From Candidatus Endomicrobiellum roisinitermitis (lineage in GTDB: Bacteria > Elusimicrobiota > Endomicrobiia > Endomicrobiales > Endomicrobiaceae), in NCBI GenBank assembly GCA_031287855.1, contig JAITSL010000053.1, positions 1 to 40,167 of the forward strand: a DNA stretch of 40,167 nt, written 5' to 3'. Positions 6,959 to 39,210 of the stretch are shown here, piece after piece. How positions within the stretch are numbered: the stretch's first letter is position 1; the number at the start of each line of letters is the position of its first letter. The notes beneath the pieces were generated by a model. That model was not told where the DNA came from, made no database searches, and saw only the letters and a list, made by a program, of their open reading frames with translations. The translations under genes were made by a program, and so were the position numbers.

Positions 6959-7882
6959 TTACTTTTTATATAAAATCGAGTCAATAATGTCTTCTGGCCT
7001 TATAAGCTTAATATTTTCTTTTTTTATTATAATGTGTTTATCAATAGGCATCGGACCAACTTGTACAGAATCAGTATAACCAAATACTGCAACGCATTTA
7101 GTTCCAACAGACGCAGCTAAATGCATAGCACCAGAGTCTATACCTAAAAACAAACTACACTGTCCTAAAAAAGCAGCACTATCTAAAATGCCTCCTTGTG
7201 CAGTAAATAATTTAGGTTTTATTTTACATTTTTGCGCTATACTTTCTAAACTCTTATGCTCCCATTTTGTTCCAGAAAGAACACATTTCAAACCATTTCC
7301 AGACAAAATATCTATAATTTTAACCCACTTATCACCTTTCAAACATTTATCTTGTCTTCTTTTACTTGCCCCAACAGAAATAGCAATTGTTTTTAGAGCA
7401 TCTAAATTGTTAATTTTAAACCATTTTCTCACATTGTTAACATTATCTTGAGGAATGTGTAATATATGAGTATAATCTTTAGGTATCCTTTTTAACCCAA
7501 AAGCTACACCTAATTGCCTATTATTTAGCAGTGATGGAACTCCTACTCTATTAACTTTTTTTGTTAGAAGAAAACTCAAAGATGCAGTCCTAAAGCCAAT
7601 TCTTTCTTTAGTTTTAGAAAAATAAGCATACAATAAAGATTTAGGAGATTCTGAAAACAAAACAGCTTTATTAAACTTTTCTTTTCTTATAAGTCTTACA
7701 TTAAAGTTACTTTTATCAAAAAAGCCATCAACCAAACCTGCCGCTATTAAAATAGGCGCTAAATCTTTACTTATTACAGAACAATTTTGTGAACCTAATT
7801 CTTCTTTAGCAGCTTTTAAAACTGGCAAAGAAAAAAGTAAATCTCCTAACTGGTTCATATGAAAAAAAATTATTTTATCCAT
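6959..7882 (-). CDS. GT9 heptosyltransferase-family protein (third of run)
   Basis: A 307-residue glycosyltransferase family 9 protein, the ADP-heptose:LPS heptosyltransferase family that builds the inner core on the cytoplasmic face of the inner membrane. The N-terminal FHMNQLGDLLFSLPVLKAA matches the first Rossmann motif, and GIDSGAMHLAASVGTKCVAV is the C-terminal donor-binding motif. IAISVGASKRRQDKC replaces the more usual HPGA.W loop. It overlaps the upstream heptosyltransferase by 13 bases and abuts pfp downstream, so translation is probably coupled. It may be heptosyltransferase II- or III-like; the exact acceptor cannot be told. Confidence 0.83.
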   Translation of the reverse strand: MDKIIFFHMNQLGDLLFSLPVLKAAKEELGSQNCSVISKDLAPILIAAGLVDGFFDKSNFNVRLIRKEKFNKAVLFSESPKSLLYAYFSKTKERIGFRTASLSFLLTKKVNRVGVPSLLNNRQLGVAFGLKRIPKDYTHILHIPQDNVNNVRKWFKINNLDALKTIAISVGASKRRQDKCLKGDKWVKIIDILSGNGLKCVLSGTKWEHKSLESIAQKCKIKPKLFTAQGGILDSAAFLGQCSLFLGIDSGAMHLAASVGTKCVAVFGYTDSVQVGPMPIDKHIIIKKENIKLIRPEDIIDSILYKK

Positions 7883-8799
7883 TTAAGTATCTCAGTAAAA
7901 ACTACTTCAGGGCTTATAGATTGTATATCTTTTTGGCTTTGCTTATTTATAAGCAAAGAAAACCTACCTATATATGGAGATGTTTCTTTTATATCAGACA
8001 TCCCAAAAATAAAAACTGAAGGTACATTTAAAACAGAAGCCAAATGCATAGGCCCTGTATCTGCTCCAATTGCAACACGTGCTTTAACCAAAATACTTGC
8101 AAGTTCATATATATTTGTCTTACCACATAAATCTATAACATCATCCGAGTCTAGTTTTCCATAATCATCCTTTGAACCTGAGACAATAATATTTAAATTA
8201 GAGTATTTTTCTTTTAATAAAAAAATAAGTTTTTGATAATTTAAAATACCCCAATCTTTACCTTTCCCCCTAGCAAAAGGTAAAAAAATAATAAAATTTT
8301 CTAAAATCCTATTATTTTTAATAATATTAGTCACGTTTGCATTAGTTTTTATATTTACTTTGGGTATAAAAGATTTGCCTGTTAAATAAAAAACTGTTTC
8401 TAAATTTCTAAGAGTGGCATTAATTTTTGCTCTTTGAGGATATATTTCTTTAATTAAAATATTGCTAAATTCTTTCATGCCAGGAACGCCAATTTTTATC
8501 TTAGATTTAGAAAATTTTGTAAGAAACGCGCTCCTTAAAAGACCTTGCAAATCTATTGCTATATCATATTTTGTCTGTCTAACTTTCTTTAAAACACCAA
8601 AAAAACCTTTTAGTTTTTCTTTTCTATTCCAAGTAATAACTTCATCTACATCCGTACAAATTTTAGGTAAAAGTTTCCAGTTAGCAAAAACAACCCAAGT
8701 TATTTGGCAGCCATAATAAACTTGCTTTAAGGCATTGGCGCAAGGTAAAGCCTGCACGATATCCCCAAATGAACTAGGTTTAACAATTAAAATTTTCAT
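7870..8799 (-). CDS. GT9 heptosyltransferase-family protein (WaaC-like)
   Basis: A 309-residue GT9 protein. It begins MKILIVKPSSFGDIVQALPC, the form typical of heptosyltransferase I (WaaC: K-xSSxGDxxxxLP). It has IAIDLQGLLRSA, the family's D-x-QGLxRSA acceptor-site motif, and GADTGPMHLASVLNVPSVFI, the donor-site motif. IIFLPFARGKGKDWG is the central loop. The start ATG overlaps the stop of the upstream acyltransferase/GT9 fusion by 4 bases (ATGA), and its own 3' end overlaps the next GT9 gene by 13. WaaC-like is an inference from these motifs; transfer of the first heptose to KDO is the likely role given waaA upstream. Confidence 0.83.
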   Translation of the reverse strand: MKILIVKPSSFGDIVQALPCANALKQVYYGCQITWVVFANWKLLPKICTDVDEVITWNRKEKLKGFFGVLKKVRQTKYDIAIDLQGLLRSAFLTKFSKSKIKIGVPGMKEFSNILIKEIYPQRAKINATLRNLETVFYLTGKSFIPKVNIKTNANVTNIIKNNRILENFIIFLPFARGKGKDWGILNYQKLIFLLKEKYSNLNIIVSGSKDDYGKLDSDDVIDLCGKTNIYELASILVKARVAIGADTGPMHLASVLNVPSVFIFGMSDIKETSPYIGRFSLLINKQSQKDIQSISPEVVFTEILKWIK

Positions 8800-21340: not shown

Positions 21341-24337
21341 TTATTCTATGTAATATTTTATTTTTAACATTGCGTCTACCCCTTCTCTTAGTCCCTTATA
21401 CCCAAACACGCTACAATCTATATTAAACTGCCCAATAGCGCTTGTTACTCCTATTTCGCCTATAGCATTACCTCCTCTTAAATCTACAACAGGGATGTCA
21501 AGATCTGTTGATTTTGCTTCAATTTTGCCAAAAAATTCGTATTCATACCCTAACCCAAGATATGGAGTTAAAGTATATTTTGAAGTATATAAATCTTCAA
21601 CACAAACCCCTGCCTCTTTTGCTTTTGTTTCTACTTCTTTCATATGCTCATGCTCTAAATCTGAATATTGCGTTAACACATTTAACAGTTTGTATCCTGA
21701 TCTTACACCTAAGCGAATTTTGCCCAAATTTGCTTGAGAAAATGCAATATTGTCTTGCGTAGATAGCGTTATATTTTTATCTTCTTGGTGCGTTAACAAA
21801 AACTTCCCGTTTACATCTACGCTAAACTTATTGCCTAATTTCAAAATATATCCGCATCCCAAATGAGCGCCATAATACATTACCTCATAGTTATATTTTA
21901 CTTCTTCCTGCGCACCTATTCCTATATCGCAGCTGTTAAAGTCTCCGGAAGAGTTCCCCGCATGTCCTGAAACGTCCATATAGATATTGTCTATTTTTAG
22001 GCGTCCTAAAATACCACCTCCAACATAGCTTATTATTCCTCTGGACGTAACATCGCCTAAATTATTTTCCATTATGGTATCTAAAGTATTATATTTACCA
22101 TCCCCATATTCCCCAAACGCTCCCAACATGAGTCTTTGATCCATAAAATGTTTTGATAAACCACCTACTACTGACACTCCTTCCATATCGACAGAGCTAT
22201 CAGAACTGTATTTTGTTGTACCGCCGTGCGCTAACGCAAAAGGTACAAGTTTACTATTAATATCGCATCTTTGACATACTGCTTGCAAAACTTTATTTGC
22301 GATAAAGTCCAATCCTTGCCCAGCAAATACTAAACCAGAAGCTGCTCCTCCTTGCGATAAGACTCTTGTTTGTGGATTTATAGATTTACTGCTTACTACT
22401 ACCGCAAGTTCGCTGGGGTCTTCCATTAAAATATAAAGATCGTACTTAACTATTACGCTGCTATATGAATCAACATATCCCGCATCACTGTTTGTAATTC
22501 CAGAAGTGCTTTTAATAAGAATAAATTTGTCATTGACGTTAATCCCACTGTTTCTATCCAAAGACACTGAAATCTTAACGTTATTGAGATTTACTCTGTT
22601 TCCGACACTAATCATAGCTTCATTAGTTCTTGGCCCATAAAAATTATAATATTCAAAATTTCTTAAGTCCGCTACAGTTATGCCTGTCGTTTTTAAATTC
22701 AGAGAGTTATTTGTAAAAACATCAGCTGTGGCGCTATTAGAATATCCTCCGTATATAATTGAAGCGTCAGAAAGTATAGCAGCACCGTCAATTGACACAG
22801 TATTACTGGTTGCCGGTCCATTTACAGAAGACCCACCGTAAACATGCCCTGCAATATCGCCGCCAAAAATTTCTACAGTGTTGCCGTTTGACGACCCATT
22901 AACACTATGACCGCCGTGAACGCCGGCGACTCTTCCGCTATATATTGTTACTTTATTTCCGGAAGCGTCAACTGCAGCATGACCGGCATAAATATCTCTT
23001 CCTATATTACTATAACTAATCTCTACTATATTATTTGTTGCAGATCCATTAGTAGAATACCCCCCATGAACATTGTTTAAAACAGCCCCATTGTATACTT
23101 TTATTTTATTACTAGACGCATTAAGAGCAGAATAACCGGCATAAGCGTCTCTTCCTATAGACCCACCATAAACGTCTACATTATTATTGGAAGCTGATCC
23201 GTAAAGCGAATATCCTCCATGTGCGTCAAATCTAACGTCTCCTGCATACATTTTTATTTCATTTCCTGACGCATTAACATTACTATAGCCGGCATAAATG
23301 TCCCGCGCGACAACTCCGCCTCCTATTTCTATTATATTGTTAAAAGCGTAGCCCTGAACAGCATACCCGCCATAAGCATCTCTTCCAATAGTTCCGTTAT
23401 TTATTTTGACTACGCTGTTACTCACAATACCAGCATTATCAGCCCTGCCTCCATGAACATCCTGATTAACAGCGCCATTATTGATTTCCACCACATTATT
23501 AAGTACCGCGCCGTTAGTAGAACGTCCTCCATAAACATCGTTTGTAATAGTCCCGCCATGCAATTTTACTTTATTTCCAGTCGCATCAAGCCCGCTAAAA
23601 CCGCCATAAACTTCGCTGGCCATATTACCGTTAAAAATCTCCACTGTATTATTAACCGTTTTAGAATGATTAGAAAATCCCCCATGGACATCCTGCCCAA
23701 TTGTTCCATTATTAATCTTGACTGTATTGTTAGCTATGTCTCCATTATCAGAAAATCCACCATTAACATTTCCTCCAATGTTGCCATCATCAATCTCCAC
23801 CATATTATTCTCTAGCAAGCCAGTATTAGAATGACAGCCAAACACATCTCCTACTATGGTGCCATTGACAACTTTTACTAAATTGCCTGAAGCAGCCGTA
23901 GCGTTGTTATTACAACGACCGCCATAAACGTCTCTACGTACCCTTCCTTTTATAATTTCAACAACATTATCAGTTACAGAACCAGCCCCATGGCTTTCGC
24001 CGCCGACAGCATCCACTCCAATTGTCCCTATAGTATTTACAGTTACTTTATTGCCCACAACATTTTGCATAGCATTATTAATATTGCTTGCGCCGAAAAT
24101 ACTATTGCCGTTAATACTAAAATTGTTCGGCAAAGTTATAGAGTTAGACTCTGTATGGACATCTGGTACGCCTTGCCCGTTGTTATGAGAATTACCATTT
24201 CCATAAACTGGAGCGACAATATTCGAATTTATTGTAATTTTTTTTGAATAAGAAATTCCTACGCAAAAAAATAAAGTTGCTGCTACTAAAAAAACAAACT
24301 TAACTTCCCTTTTGGTAAAACTAAAATTTGTAAGCAT
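21341..24337 (-). CDS. Autotransporter with about 17 beta-helix-like repeats and C-terminal barrel
   Basis: A 998-residue secreted/outer-membrane protein. The N-terminal signal sequence has basic residues before VKFVFLVAATLFFCVGISYS. From about residue 95 to 555 it holds some 17 imperfect repeats of 24-28 residues with the pattern N-x-V-x-I-x-x-G-x-I-x-x-D-V-Y-G-G-x-S; examples are NKVKLHGGTITNDVYGGRS and NTVEIFNGNMASEVYGGFS. After a linker with WDxF-like NDKFILIKSTSG, the last 300 residues form an autotransporter barrel domain (FALAHGGTTKYS, GLSKHFMDQRLMLGAFGEYG, YYGAHLGCGYILKLGNKFSV) ending KIKYYIE. TTG 24343 is also in frame; ATG 24337 is chosen, with GGAG at 24349-24352. The repeat region looks richer in G and C than neighbouring genes. 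The ligand is unknown; a passenger coil per repeat is inferred. Confidence 0.85.
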   Translation of the reverse strand: MLTNFSFTKREVKFVFLVAATLFFCVGISYSKKITINSNIVAPVYGNGNSHNNGQGVPDVHTESNSITLPNNFSINGNSIFGASNINNAMQNVVGNKVTVNTIGTIGVDAVGGESHGAGSVTDNVVEIIKGRVRRDVYGGRCNNNATAASGNLVKVVNGTIVGDVFGCHSNTGLLENNMVEIDDGNIGGNVNGGFSDNGDIANNTVKINNGTIGQDVHGGFSNHSKTVNNTVEIFNGNMASEVYGGFSGLDATGNKVKLHGGTITNDVYGGRSTNGAVLNNVVEINNGAVNQDVHGGRADNAGIVSNSVVKINNGTIGRDAYGGYAVQGYAFNNIIEIGGGVVARDIYAGYSNVNASGNEIKMYAGDVRFDAHGGYSLYGSASNNNVDVYGGSIGRDAYAGYSALNASSNKIKVYNGAVLNNVHGGYSTNGSATNNIVEISYSNIGRDIYAGHAAVDASGNKVTIYSGRVAGVHGGHSVNGSSNGNTVEIFGGDIAGHVYGGSSVNGPATSNTVSIDGAAILSDASIIYGGYSNSATADVFTNNSLNLKTTGITVADLRNFEYYNFYGPRTNEAMISVGNRVNLNNVKISVSLDRNSGINVNDKFILIKSTSGITNSDAGYVDSYSSVIVKYDLYILMEDPSELAVVVSSKSINPQTRVLSQGGAASGLVFAGQGLDFIANKVLQAVCQRCDINSKLVPFALAHGGTTKYSSDSSVDMEGVSVVGGLSKHFMDQRLMLGAFGEYGDGKYNTLDTIMENNLGDVTSRGIISYVGGGILGRLKIDNIYMDVSGHAGNSSGDFNSCDIGIGAQEEVKYNYEVMYYGAHLGCGYILKLGNKFSVDVNGKFLLTHQEDKNITLSTQDNIAFSQANLGKIRLGVRSGYKLLNVLTQYSDLEHEHMKEVETKAKEAGVCVEDLYTSKYTLTPYLGLGYEYEFFGKIEAKSTDLDIPVVDLRGGNAIGEIGVTSAIGQFNIDCSVFGYKGLREGVDAMLKIKYYIE

Positions 24338-24352
24338 AAGCAATTTAACTCC

Positions 24353-36658: not shown

Positions 36659-36785
36659 TATCACCCCGAAAAAACAAAATTACTAATTATTTGATCTTAT
36701 TTTAAATTTGGAAATTGAAGGAGATTTTACCACTTTATTTGATATCTGTCAAAATTTTACAAAATATAAGATTATTTTCATCAAG

Positions 36786-36995
36786 CTATTCGAAAGAGTC
36801 TTTTGAATTAACGTTAGCAGCAACATCTTCTAAGTAAGCTTCTTGTTTTTGAATATTTTCTGTATCTTTACTTTGTTGAGCAATTTGATCTCTGTCTACA
36901 TAACTTCTATATACAGGTATAGCTATAATACTTAAAACCCCTATTATAACTAGCACTATTATAAGCTCGATAAGCGTAAAACCATTAGACTTTAT
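36786..36995 (-). pseudogene. Short type IV prepilin-like gene absorbed into the lysC frame
   Basis: About 69 codons from the ATA at 36993-36995: KSNGFTLIELIIVLVIIGVL, then SIIAIPVYRSYVDRDQIAQQ and a polar tail to TAG-terminated SKDSFE. The G/FTLIE peptidase and methylation site, with Glu+5, is perfect, and the 20-residue hydrophobic helix is intact. A good ribosome binding site (AGGAG, complement of 37001-37005) lies 5 bases before the ATA, which is one base away from ATG. This looks like a former stand-alone pilin or pseudopilin just downstream of lysC. Such short prepilin-like genes are common in Elusimicrobia by general knowledge. It could be made by ATA initiation, by slippage, or only as part of the fusion. 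Confidence 0.7.
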
Positions 36996-38234
36996 AGCAA
37001 CTCCTATTTTTTTAGAAAGGCCAAAACCTTTATGAAGTTCTTCTAGTGCTGTTGTTAAATCTCTTTCATCTATAATACAAGATATTTTTATTTCGCTTGT
37101 AGAAATCATTTCTATGTTGATGTCTTTTTTATGAAGCATTTCAAACATTTTGCCGGCCACACCTGCATTGCTTTTCATACCTATACCAACAACAGAAATT
37201 TTTGAAACATGCTCATCACAAATCACTTGTGAGGCTTTAACTTCTTGAGCAAGTTTATCTAATTCAATTTGTGTTTTCTTAAGTTCTTGTTTGCTTACCG
37301 TAAAAGAAATGTCATTTTTTTTGTTTACCGCTGCAGATTGAATTATCATATCTACATTTACACCAACCTTTGCAAGTCTACTAAAAATCTTAGCTGCTAT
37401 CCCAGGAATGTCTGGAAGATCTATTATTGTAAATTTTACTTGATTTTTATCAAAAGCTATACCTGACACTAACAACGTTTCCATCTTTTTCCTCCTGATA
37501 TTTTCCTCACTTGTTATTATCGTACCTGGATTTTGACTAAAAGTACTTCTTGAATGAATTTCTACACCAAACTTTTTTGCAACCTCAATACTTCTAGACT
37601 GCAAAACTTGAGCACCCGACCCTGCAAGCTCAAGCATTTCATCATAAGATATACACTCAATTTTTCTTGCATTTTTTGCTACCCTTGGATCTACCGTAAA
37701 TACACCTTCAACATCAGAATATATTTCACAAAAATCTGCATGTAATTGCGCTGCTAATGCAACTGCAGTTAAATCTGAACCGCCTCTCCCTAATGTTGTA
37801 ATATCACCTTTAGCGTTTAGAGCTTGAAAACCTGCAACTACAACAATATTATCTTTTGCAAGCATAGCTTTTATCTTTTTCGGATTTACTTTTTTAATTC
37901 TTGCCTTAGTATAACTAGTGTCTGCTGTAATACCTGCCTGAGGGCCAGTTAGAGAAATTGCTTTTTGTCCCATAAAGTTTATTGCCATAGCTAAAAGAGA
38001 TATAGAGATCATTTCGCCGGTTGCAAGTAGCATATCTAATTCTCTGTCTGGAGGATTTGATGTAATGTTTTTGGCCATAGTAAGTAATTCGTCAGTTGTG
38101 TCGCCAGGAGCAGAAACAACAACTACAACTTTATTGCCTGCCTTCTTTTTTTCAACTACTCTACTAGCAACCAATTTTATTTTATCTGCGTCTGCTACAG
38201 AAGAACCGCCAAATTTCATTACAACAAGCGCCAT
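36786..38234 (-). CDS. lysC: Aspartate kinase fused in frame to a type IV prepilin N-terminus
   Basis: Residues 1-409 are a normal single-function aspartokinase, the first step to lysine, threonine and methionine: VMKFGGSSVADADKIK, FQALNAKGDITTLGRGGSDL, then two ACT domains (FTIIDLPDIPGIAAKIFSRL and VVGIGMKSNAGVAGKMFEML) and the usual end LEELHKGFGLSKK. The frame then runs on through IGVAIKSNGFTLIELIIVLV, a textbook type IV prepilin leader and N-terminal helix, to residue 482. The junction holds seven A (complement of 37007-37013). Removing one A would place TAG (complement of 37004-37006) right after GLSKK. AGGAGAG before ATG 38234 supports the start. The aspartokinase call is firm; the fusion may be a mutation, slippage-corrected, or a sequencing error. 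Confidence 0.95.
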   Translation of the reverse strand: MALVVMKFGGSSVADADKIKLVASRVVEKKKAGNKVVVVVSAPGDTTDELLTMAKNITSNPPDRELDMLLATGEMISISLLAMAINFMGQKAISLTGPQAGITADTSYTKARIKKVNPKKIKAMLAKDNIVVVAGFQALNAKGDITTLGRGGSDLTAVALAAQLHADFCEIYSDVEGVFTVDPRVAKNARKIECISYDEMLELAGSGAQVLQSRSIEVAKKFGVEIHSRSTFSQNPGTIITSEENIRRKKMETLLVSGIAFDKNQVKFTIIDLPDIPGIAAKIFSRLAKVGVNVDMIIQSAAVNKKNDISFTVSKQELKKTQIELDKLAQEVKASQVICDEHVSKISVVGIGMKSNAGVAGKMFEMLHKKDINIEMISTSEIKISCIIDERDLTTALEELHKGFGLSKKIGVAIKSNGFTLIELIIVLVIIGVLSIIAIPVYRSYVDRDQIAQQSKDTENIQKQEAYLEDVAANVNSKDSFE

Positions 38235-38289: not shown

Positions 38290-39210
38290 TTAAATTATTA
38301 TTGTAGCACCTTTAACATCAAAATCTAATATATAAGTTTTTACAGAAACGCTTTCTGCTGCCCAAACATTTTTCATAGTCTTTTGTACGTTGTTAGCATC
38401 CTTTTTATCACATAAAGCAGCTAAAGTAGGCCCTGAACCAGATAGAAACGCTCCAAAAGCTTTAGCATTAAGAGCCGCCTGCAAAACTTCGTTCATAACT
38501 GGTATCATTTTTCCTCTGTAAGGTTGATGAAGCTTATCTTGCATAGCCTGTCTTAAAAGAGAGTAGTCTGCGCAACAAAAAGCAGCTGCAAGAAGCGCTA
38601 CCCTAGACATATTAAAAACAACATCATTTATGTCTACCATCTTAGGCAAAATTTGTCGAGAACGCCTTGTTCTAAGCTCAAAAGAAGGAACACACAAAAT
38701 CACTTTTAATTTTGGAATGGGAAGATTTATAACTGTTCCATGATTTTCATTTTCATCTTTACTACATATGCAAAGTCCGCCAAAAATTGCAGGAATAACA
38801 TTGTCCGGATGACCTTCAATTTTAATTGCAAGACTTGCAATTTGAGATTTATCTAGCTTGTTTTCACATAAGGCATTGGCAAGCATAATGCCACCAACTA
38901 TAGCTGTAGAACTAGAACCAAGACCTCCACTTAAAGGAATATTGTTATTTATAGTTATATTTAAATTATTTAAATTATACTTTGTTTCTTTAAGAACATT
39001 AAACGTTTCTTGCATAGACTGCCAAAGAAGATTTTTTTTACCTAGATCAAGAGTTTTTTTCCCTTCTCCTTTAATAATAAAAGTTGTCTTTTTAGCATTA
39101 GGCACATACTTTGCTTCAAATGTATTGTAGAGGCAAAGTGCTGCGCCAAAAATGTCAAAACCTGGTCCCAAATTTGCAGTTGATGACGGTACTCGTACTT
39201 TTACTTTCAT
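38290..39210 (-). CDS. thrB: Homoserine kinase
   Basis: A 306-residue GHMP-family kinase that phosphorylates homoserine in threonine synthesis. VRVPSSTANLGPGFDIFGAA is the N-terminal motif, IPLSGGLGSSSTAIVGG the ATP-binding loop (PxxxGLGSSxA), IEGHPDNVIPAIFGGL the third conserved stretch and FGAFLSGSGPTLAALC the C-terminal motif. It lies 20 bases after nfu and 55 bases before lysC, so threonine/lysine pathway genes are grouped. No homoserine dehydrogenase or threonine synthase is in the window. Confidence 0.95.
   Translation of the reverse strand: MKVKVRVPSSTANLGPGFDIFGAALCLYNTFEAKYVPNAKKTTFIIKGEGKKTLDLGKKNLLWQSMQETFNVLKETKYNLNNLNITINNNIPLSGGLGSSSTAIVGGIMLANALCENKLDKSQIASLAIKIEGHPDNVIPAIFGGLCICSKDENENHGTVINLPIPKLKVILCVPSFELRTRRSRQILPKMVDINDVVFNMSRVALLAAAFCCADYSLLRQAMQDKLHQPYRGKMIPVMNEVLQAALNAKAFGAFLSGSGPTLAALCDKKDANNVQKTMKNVWAAESVSVKTYILDFDVKGATIII

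Follow-up and report, generated by a model that had tools for sequence, protein, structure and literature searches.

An aspartokinase gene sharing one reading frame with a mini-prepilin in Candidatus Endomicrobiellum roisinitermitis

The fused frame and its surroundings

The window, that is the whole stretch of 40,167 nucleotides that was analysed (contig JAITSL010000053.1), carries on its reverse strand a single reading frame comprising lysC and a small type IV prepilin gene. The features are as follows.

36786-38234, reverse strand: fused open reading frame of 482 codons, aspartokinase LysC plus mini-prepilin, identified by translation and profile matches
37008-38234, reverse strand: aspartokinase part, residues 1-409, its final GLSKK falling on or close to the usual LysC end of relatives
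37482-37484, reverse strand: internal ATG (M251), with a perfect AGGAGG upstream at 37491-37496
37007-37013, reverse strand: run of seven A's (A7) at the junction; 9, 8, 7 or 6 bases at the same stretch in relatives
37001-37005, reverse strand: AGGAG, presumed from its sequence to be the ribosome-binding site of the once-separate prepilin
36993-36995, reverse strand: ATA in place of the ATG of the closest relatives, through a 3-base deletion; 5 bases beyond AGGAG
36918-36992, reverse strand: class III signal (N_methyl motif), with a cut predicted from the motif at G418/F419 (36981/36980)
36789-36980, reverse strand: predicted mature mini-pilin of 64 residues, a helix and a short charged tail with no globular head

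The translation of the frame runs without a stop over 482 codons and terminates in ...GLSKKIGVAIKSNGFTLIELIIVLVIIGVL...KDSFE and the stop codon. Within it, the Pfam AA_kinase domain occupies residues 3-227 and ACT domains reach residue 404. The curated cut-offs of two full-length monofunctional aspartokinase models were passed, by NF005155 with 553.1 bits (cut-off 346) and by TIGR00656 with 423.5 bits (cut-off 402.25), over residues 1-409 and 1-405, respectively, and residues 1-407 align with solved aspartokinases such as PDB 3aaw. Behind the enzyme, an N_methyl match at residues 415-438 exceeds the Pfam cut-off (27.8 and 33.0 bits against 21.2), with G-1 and E5 present (SNG/FTLIEL). The 418 residues ahead of the predicted cut site place the protein well outside the 6-26 residues used as a leader criterion for prepilins. 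A predicted structure of the fusion (mean pLDDT 68.6) shows a long helix at residues 421-479 at low confidence and carries no evidential weight.

The junction reads TCT AAA AAA ATA GGA GTT GCT ATA AAG TCT AAT GGT TTT, and the fusion is real. A sequence-only reading of this DNA had described the lysC frame as joined to an adjacent prepilin at A7, and the single frame with both aspartokinase and N_methyl matches above cut-off bears this out. It was also correct that six A's would place a TAG right after GLSKK, and AGGAG does stand 5 bases ahead of the ATA. AGGAG overlaps the lysC stop (TAGGAG) in L032 and L036, among other relatives.

The genome is 98% complete and gave one aspartokinase match (E up to 0.001), and LysC is therefore presumably still functional, or set free from its tail. 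On one side of lysC lies thrB (homoserine kinase, 38290-39210) and on the other, from 36664 downwards, ABC transporter genes that resemble metNIQ, with Pfam matches to ABC_tran, BPD_transp_1 and Lipoprotein_9. The interval from the prepilin to the transporter genes contains TTGACA-17-TAAAAT (36724-36752, reverse strand; 11/12), its second hexamer preceded by TG, a stretch nearly unchanged in L031; promoter-like sites in the region number three, not above shuffled sequence (mean 3.4). Elsewhere in the window, a 1000-codon open reading frame (21341-24343, reverse strand) gave no Pfam hit at an E-value of 0.001 or below.

We take the window's LysC to be of the alpha2-beta2 type, whose regulatory subunit is produced on its own, and M251 is the likely start of this beta subunit. 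A ribosome-binding-site core precedes the matching internal start in 44 of 48 lysC loci, a neighbouring codon having been picked for L106 and L045 and the start in some reduced relatives lying a few codons away. The internally started subunit would also carry the pilin tail. Nearly all endosymbionts of the group are reported to have retained lysine synthesis (accessible part of PMC11257099).

Frame states among relatives

The named relatives nearest to the window's species live as symbionts in termite guts and carry the titles Endomicrobium or Candidatus Endomicrobiellum. Among the 41 genus genomes searched, 40 gave some lysC match and 38 a clear lysC, which is adjoined by an N_methyl prepilin match in 25 of the 38. 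This gene order recurs among the relatives, and the fusion is found in two species, the window's and that of L031/L002, both with A7; the junction is therefore more than chance. At the other loci examined in the genus set, no lysC frame exceeds 417 codons. L031 is isolate Iy174_bin31, a different species from the window's. It retains the pilin ATG and ribosome-binding site within its fused frame, so it may make both the fused and the separate pilin.

Counted from the serine codon to the stop, the stretch is 9 bases in L036-type relatives and L035, 8 in L034 and L033, 7 in the window and L031, and 6 in L032 (raw counts of 11 for L036, L039, L009 and L008 take in two bases of the serine codon TCC and are read as 9). 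Nine bases are followed by TAG or TAA in L035 and in seven of the eight L036-type relatives; in L018, also of this type, the stop was lost by a different route, and its raw count of 6 has another cause. With eight bases (L033, L034) the lysC frame continues for eight residues to a TAA. L032 (also L003), whose enzyme is 95% identical, has six A's, the TAG and a separate, ATG-started pilin.

Across the 32 lysC-prepilin pairs extracted, the relative phases of the two frames divide 20, 6 and 6. Since frame and spacing vary in this way among relatives, the fusion does not count as a conserved device, and a conserved programmed fusion was ruled out on this ground. The stretch of 6-9 bases likewise lacks the conserved slip site expected of programmed slippage or of a phase-variable gene.

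Compared with L031 and L032, the window is short of exactly three bases (...CTATGATAAAG... in the relatives, ...CTATAAAG... in the window). What had been taken for a single start-codon change from ATG to ATA is in fact this deletion, which removes the pilin ATG yet preserves the fused frame. The window has no in-frame ATG, GTG or TTG in the 60 bases ahead of the pilin motif, alone in this among the 32 pairs; apart from the ATA, whose distance from AGGAG suits a pilin, it offers no candidate for a separate pilin start. The fusion is known from only two genomes, and the small synonymous divergence between their lysC genes (0.09) does not speak for long-term persistence. Their prepilin parts differ at one synonymous and five non-synonymous sites. 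A selection test on the fused copies was rejected, as six differences give no power to distinguish selection from decay.

The direction of the length changes was approached by ordered parsimony, which assumes single-base steps and rests here on a few species that branch differently from one region to the next. On the three orders in which the window, L031 and L032 form a clade, an ancestor with 7 bases required 4 steps, one with 6 required 5-6 and one with 8 required 5. On the upstream-flank tree, 5 steps sufficed with 7 at both inner nodes examined, against 6-7 for the alternatives. Parsimony therefore favours a common ancestor of the three that was fused, with 7 bases, the fusion being later undone in L032. 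The one inserted A of the sequence-only reading sits poorly with this ancestor and with the series of 9, 8, 7 and 6 bases in relatives; stepwise loss of bases from a longer run is more likely.

The branching order itself differs between gene regions. The lysC-only tree joins L031 to L032 (91, on a very short branch), and lysC with its downstream flank (the distant L036 left out) joins the window to L032 (91) within a clade of three (97). When left free, the upstream flank places L033 beside L031 (94), which breaks that clade, and the concatenated flanks do the same (58), the three closest likewise not standing together. The AU test compared only orders that keep the three as a clade. Window plus L032 gave 0.992 with the concatenated flanks, 0.982 with the downstream flank and 0.774 with the upstream flank; the corresponding values were 0.013, 0.0066 and 0.27 for window plus L031, and 0.0025, 0.030 and 0.037 for L031 plus L032. 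This conflict slightly lowers our confidence in the explanation preferred below.

The mini-pilin family and the prepilin peptidase

Measured from the G of the motif, the pilin has 44-76 residues in most extracted loci and 32 in the degraded L014. A longer lysC-adjoining pilin (120-140 residues from G) is found in L041, L042, L046 and L071, which are titled Endomicrobium, fall elsewhere in the lysC tree and are identical to none of the genus-genome loci. The mini-pilin probably derives from a longer pilin by shortening. For the first 28 codons from G, omega was 0.10 over 27 loci (log-likelihood −1067.3, compared with −1158.8 at omega 1), the set being 27 of the 32 prepilin frames after removal of L014 and the four full-length pilins. 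The extraction pattern missed L015, which starts GLTL and looks intact, and L038, L039 and L043 were not taken; broken or degraded prepilin copies occur in relatives such as L014, L039 and L043.

Presence of an intact lysC-linked prepilin was tabulated by hand against that of a prepilin peptidase in 38 of the 41 genomes (G002, G008 and G022, with no clear lysC, were left out). Both were present in 21, the peptidase only in 3, the prepilin only in 4 and neither in 10 (Fisher p 0.0004, not a true probability, as the genomes are related and some incomplete). For genomes at least 80% complete the same counts were 19, 3, 2 and 4 (p 0.02). Partial peptidase matches were scored absent in G061 and G017 and present in G060, and prepilins under the family cut-off (G005, G007, G032, G061) were scored absent. 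The low omega of the helix and this co-occurrence suggest that in many of these lineages the mini-pilin gene works, or did so until recently. A tiny pilin maintained beside lysC across much of an endosymbiont genus merits attention.

In G017, a mini-prepilin relative lies on a different contig from lysC (C26, 4339-4491), and the pattern found none beside lysC. Seven genomes (G064, G001, G026, G014, G011, G006 and G012) have a mini-prepilin together with a nearly full-length prepilin-peptidase match, and no PF00482 platform match at E up to 0.001. Their PF00437 ATPase matches are weak (best E 4.7e-6), the best in each genome lying inside a frame of 745-903 codons. Completeness among them includes 99% for G064, 75% for G011 and 60% for G006. 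Here pilin and peptidase are retained with no evident pilus machine.

The window's own genome encodes a prepilin peptidase, with a PF01478 match (E 4.1e-17, 62.6 bits) that covers 102 of the 104 positions of the catalytic-domain model; we take its IGLGD stretch and the D in VDYFHRIIP to hold the two catalytic aspartates. The PF06750 methylase domain is absent from this protein, and the best PF06750 match in the genome (E 0.051) is under the cut-off. N-methylation of the mature pilin is therefore unlikely, though possible, and the methylation signal proposed from the sequence is not supported. Contig C49 of this genome (G000) holds one assembly-ATPase match and two adjacent platform-type matches, an arrangement that we assume to be Tad-like. 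At L101 (8159-10748), a secretin-like frame and frames with TadE-like starts were read as pieces of a Tad pilus. At L100, in the window's genome, the prepilin peptidase gene (7944-8630) has its start covered by a pilin-like frame (7531-7959), whose ComGC match is weak, far below the cut-off, and which has no N_methyl match.

Origin of the fusion and comparison with known systems

We favour, with a probability of about 0.7, a recent and genuine in-frame fusion that arose as the A-rich end of lysC lost bases one step at a time. In this AT-rich endosymbiont lineage, the end of lysC would have shortened from 9 to 8 to 7 bases before TAGGAG, and at a length of 7 the lysC frame would bypass its stop and enter the prepilin frame. 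The enzyme would tolerate the tail because the junction lies beyond its last domain. The window's species would then have lost the prepilin ATG by the 3-base deletion, and pilin would be made, if at all, mainly as a tail of LysC and of the internally started beta subunit; L032 would have been re-separated by the loss of one further base. The fusion is probably tolerated rather than selected, and near-neutral. Such fusions are easy to make, since in 12 of the 14 close tandem pairs in the window a single-base indel at the stop gives a shared frame (5 cleanly, with no stop between, and 7 through an existing overlap). The unusual feature is the pairing, a single-copy cytoplasmic enzyme ahead of a membrane signal. 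With close relatives that span every frame state, including the fusion and an apparent re-separation, the locus presents a gene fusion caught in the act.

A more speculative extension is that the fusion resolves itself. The prepilin leader is described as cytoplasmic, with the hydrophobic stretch in the membrane, and the peptidase as cleaving on the cytoplasmic side with no need of the other parts (accessible text of PMC4471445 and PMC10191384). The expected topology of the product, enzyme in the cytoplasm and helix in the membrane, would fit a prepilin. The peptidase could then cut after G418 and free an almost normal enzyme, yielding LysC lengthened by nine residues (IGVAIKSNG) and a mini-pilin of 64 residues, with LysC in the role of the prepilin 'leader peptide'. 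We put this forward tentatively and think it rather doubtful. If it holds, a peptidase for short leaders now parts a metabolic enzyme from a membrane protein, and the fusion is harmless, so that the pilin start codon could be lost. A cut product would also show how a reduced genome tolerates the fusion of its one aspartokinase to a membrane protein. The main interest of the locus lies in this possible undoing of a fusion after translation.

Four other explanations were weighed against stepwise shortening. The pilin part may be a dying gene, its start lost and the tail carried passively until it decays. The missing ATG in the window's species, the 5 to 1 excess of non-synonymous differences between the fused copies and the degraded relatives L014, L039 and L043 are all in keeping with decay; however, the motif and the 65-codon frame are intact and the helix is under purifying selection over the 27 loci, and we consider decay possible without thinking it probable. 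Far less room is left for a selected, membrane-tethered aspartokinase in which the pilin helix anchors LysC as a new trait. A complete signal-anchor with G-1 and E5 intact does stand behind the enzyme, in two species, but a peptidase able to part the two is present, the frame is unconserved among relatives and, if the ancestor was fused, the tether was lost again in the close relative L032. Of everything considered, tethering seems to us the hardest to credit.

Homopolymers are a classic site of sequencing error, and a sequencing or assembly error with a true count of six A's would leave exactly the arrangement of L032. The sequence-only reading had named such a sister genome as the sign of an error, and in this respect the comparison went both ways: L032 has the six A's, TAG and ATG, while L031, from another species, has the same A7 fusion, which makes a base-calling error unlikely. 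The spread of relatives over 9, 8, 7 and 6 bases and the deletion of exactly three bases at the pilin ATG, with the fused frame kept, also speak against error, which we regard as very improbable. Slippage on A7 by RNA polymerase or ribosome, or variation of the run from cell to cell, would give a mixture of normal, fused and short-tailed LysC. Slippage on long poly(A) runs is stated to give 12-50% corrected transcripts in insect endosymbionts (accessible part of the review PMC5009743; see also PMC3017870), poly-A/T stretches of seven or more have served as a possible mark of phase variation (as excerpted from PMC3711429), and run length does vary among the close relatives here. Seven A's are nevertheless short compared with the usual sites of transcriptional realignment, given in the same excerpt as homopolymers of at least eight or combined shorter ones (PMC3711429), and neither run length nor frame is conserved. 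Runs of at least seven A's are, moreover, common in the window, with 38, the junction run included, on the coding strand of 28 hand-chosen open reading frames (33.7 kb). The slippage put forward in the sequence-only reading found no positive evidence, and we judge it unlikely.

A literature search that was thin on subscription journals found no published report of an aspartate kinase-prepilin gene fusion. The fusion resembles the fusions and poly(A) frameshifts of other endosymbionts (yidC-yidD in Blochmannia; Blochmannia and Buchnera) in its AT-rich setting, in indels in A runs and in the joining of neighbours, as far as the accessible part of PMC3017870 describes them. Here, by contrast, a biosynthetic enzyme is joined to a prepilin, and the A run sits on the border between the two genes, which leaves both coding parts intact. 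The enzyme part is like the monofunctional aspartokinase LysC (PDB 3aaw) in its match over residues 1-407, in its TIGR00656 and NF005155 assignments and in its internal start with a ribosome-binding site; it differs by 73 additional residues with a prepilin signal. The mini-pilin is like the headless type IV pilins (Geobacter 'Geopilin domain 1') in being short and helical and in lacking a globular head, and residues 416-463 match PDB 7tgg and residues 419-463 PDB 2m7g. For the window's mini-pilin the analysis revealed neither a head partner nor an assembly machine of its own, and the signal lies inside a long protein, unlike the N-terminal signal of the Geobacter pilins. With class III signal peptides the motif shares G-1, E5, the hydrophobic stretch and a cytoplasmic leader of the kind cut by prepilin peptidase (accessible text of PMC4471445 and PMC10191384). 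Leaders of this class are given as 6-26 residues, or about 15-30 in type IVb prepilins (PMC4471445, in part), and that of S. sanguinis is called 'very long', with no number in the accessible text (PMC10191384); the leader of the window's protein would have 418.
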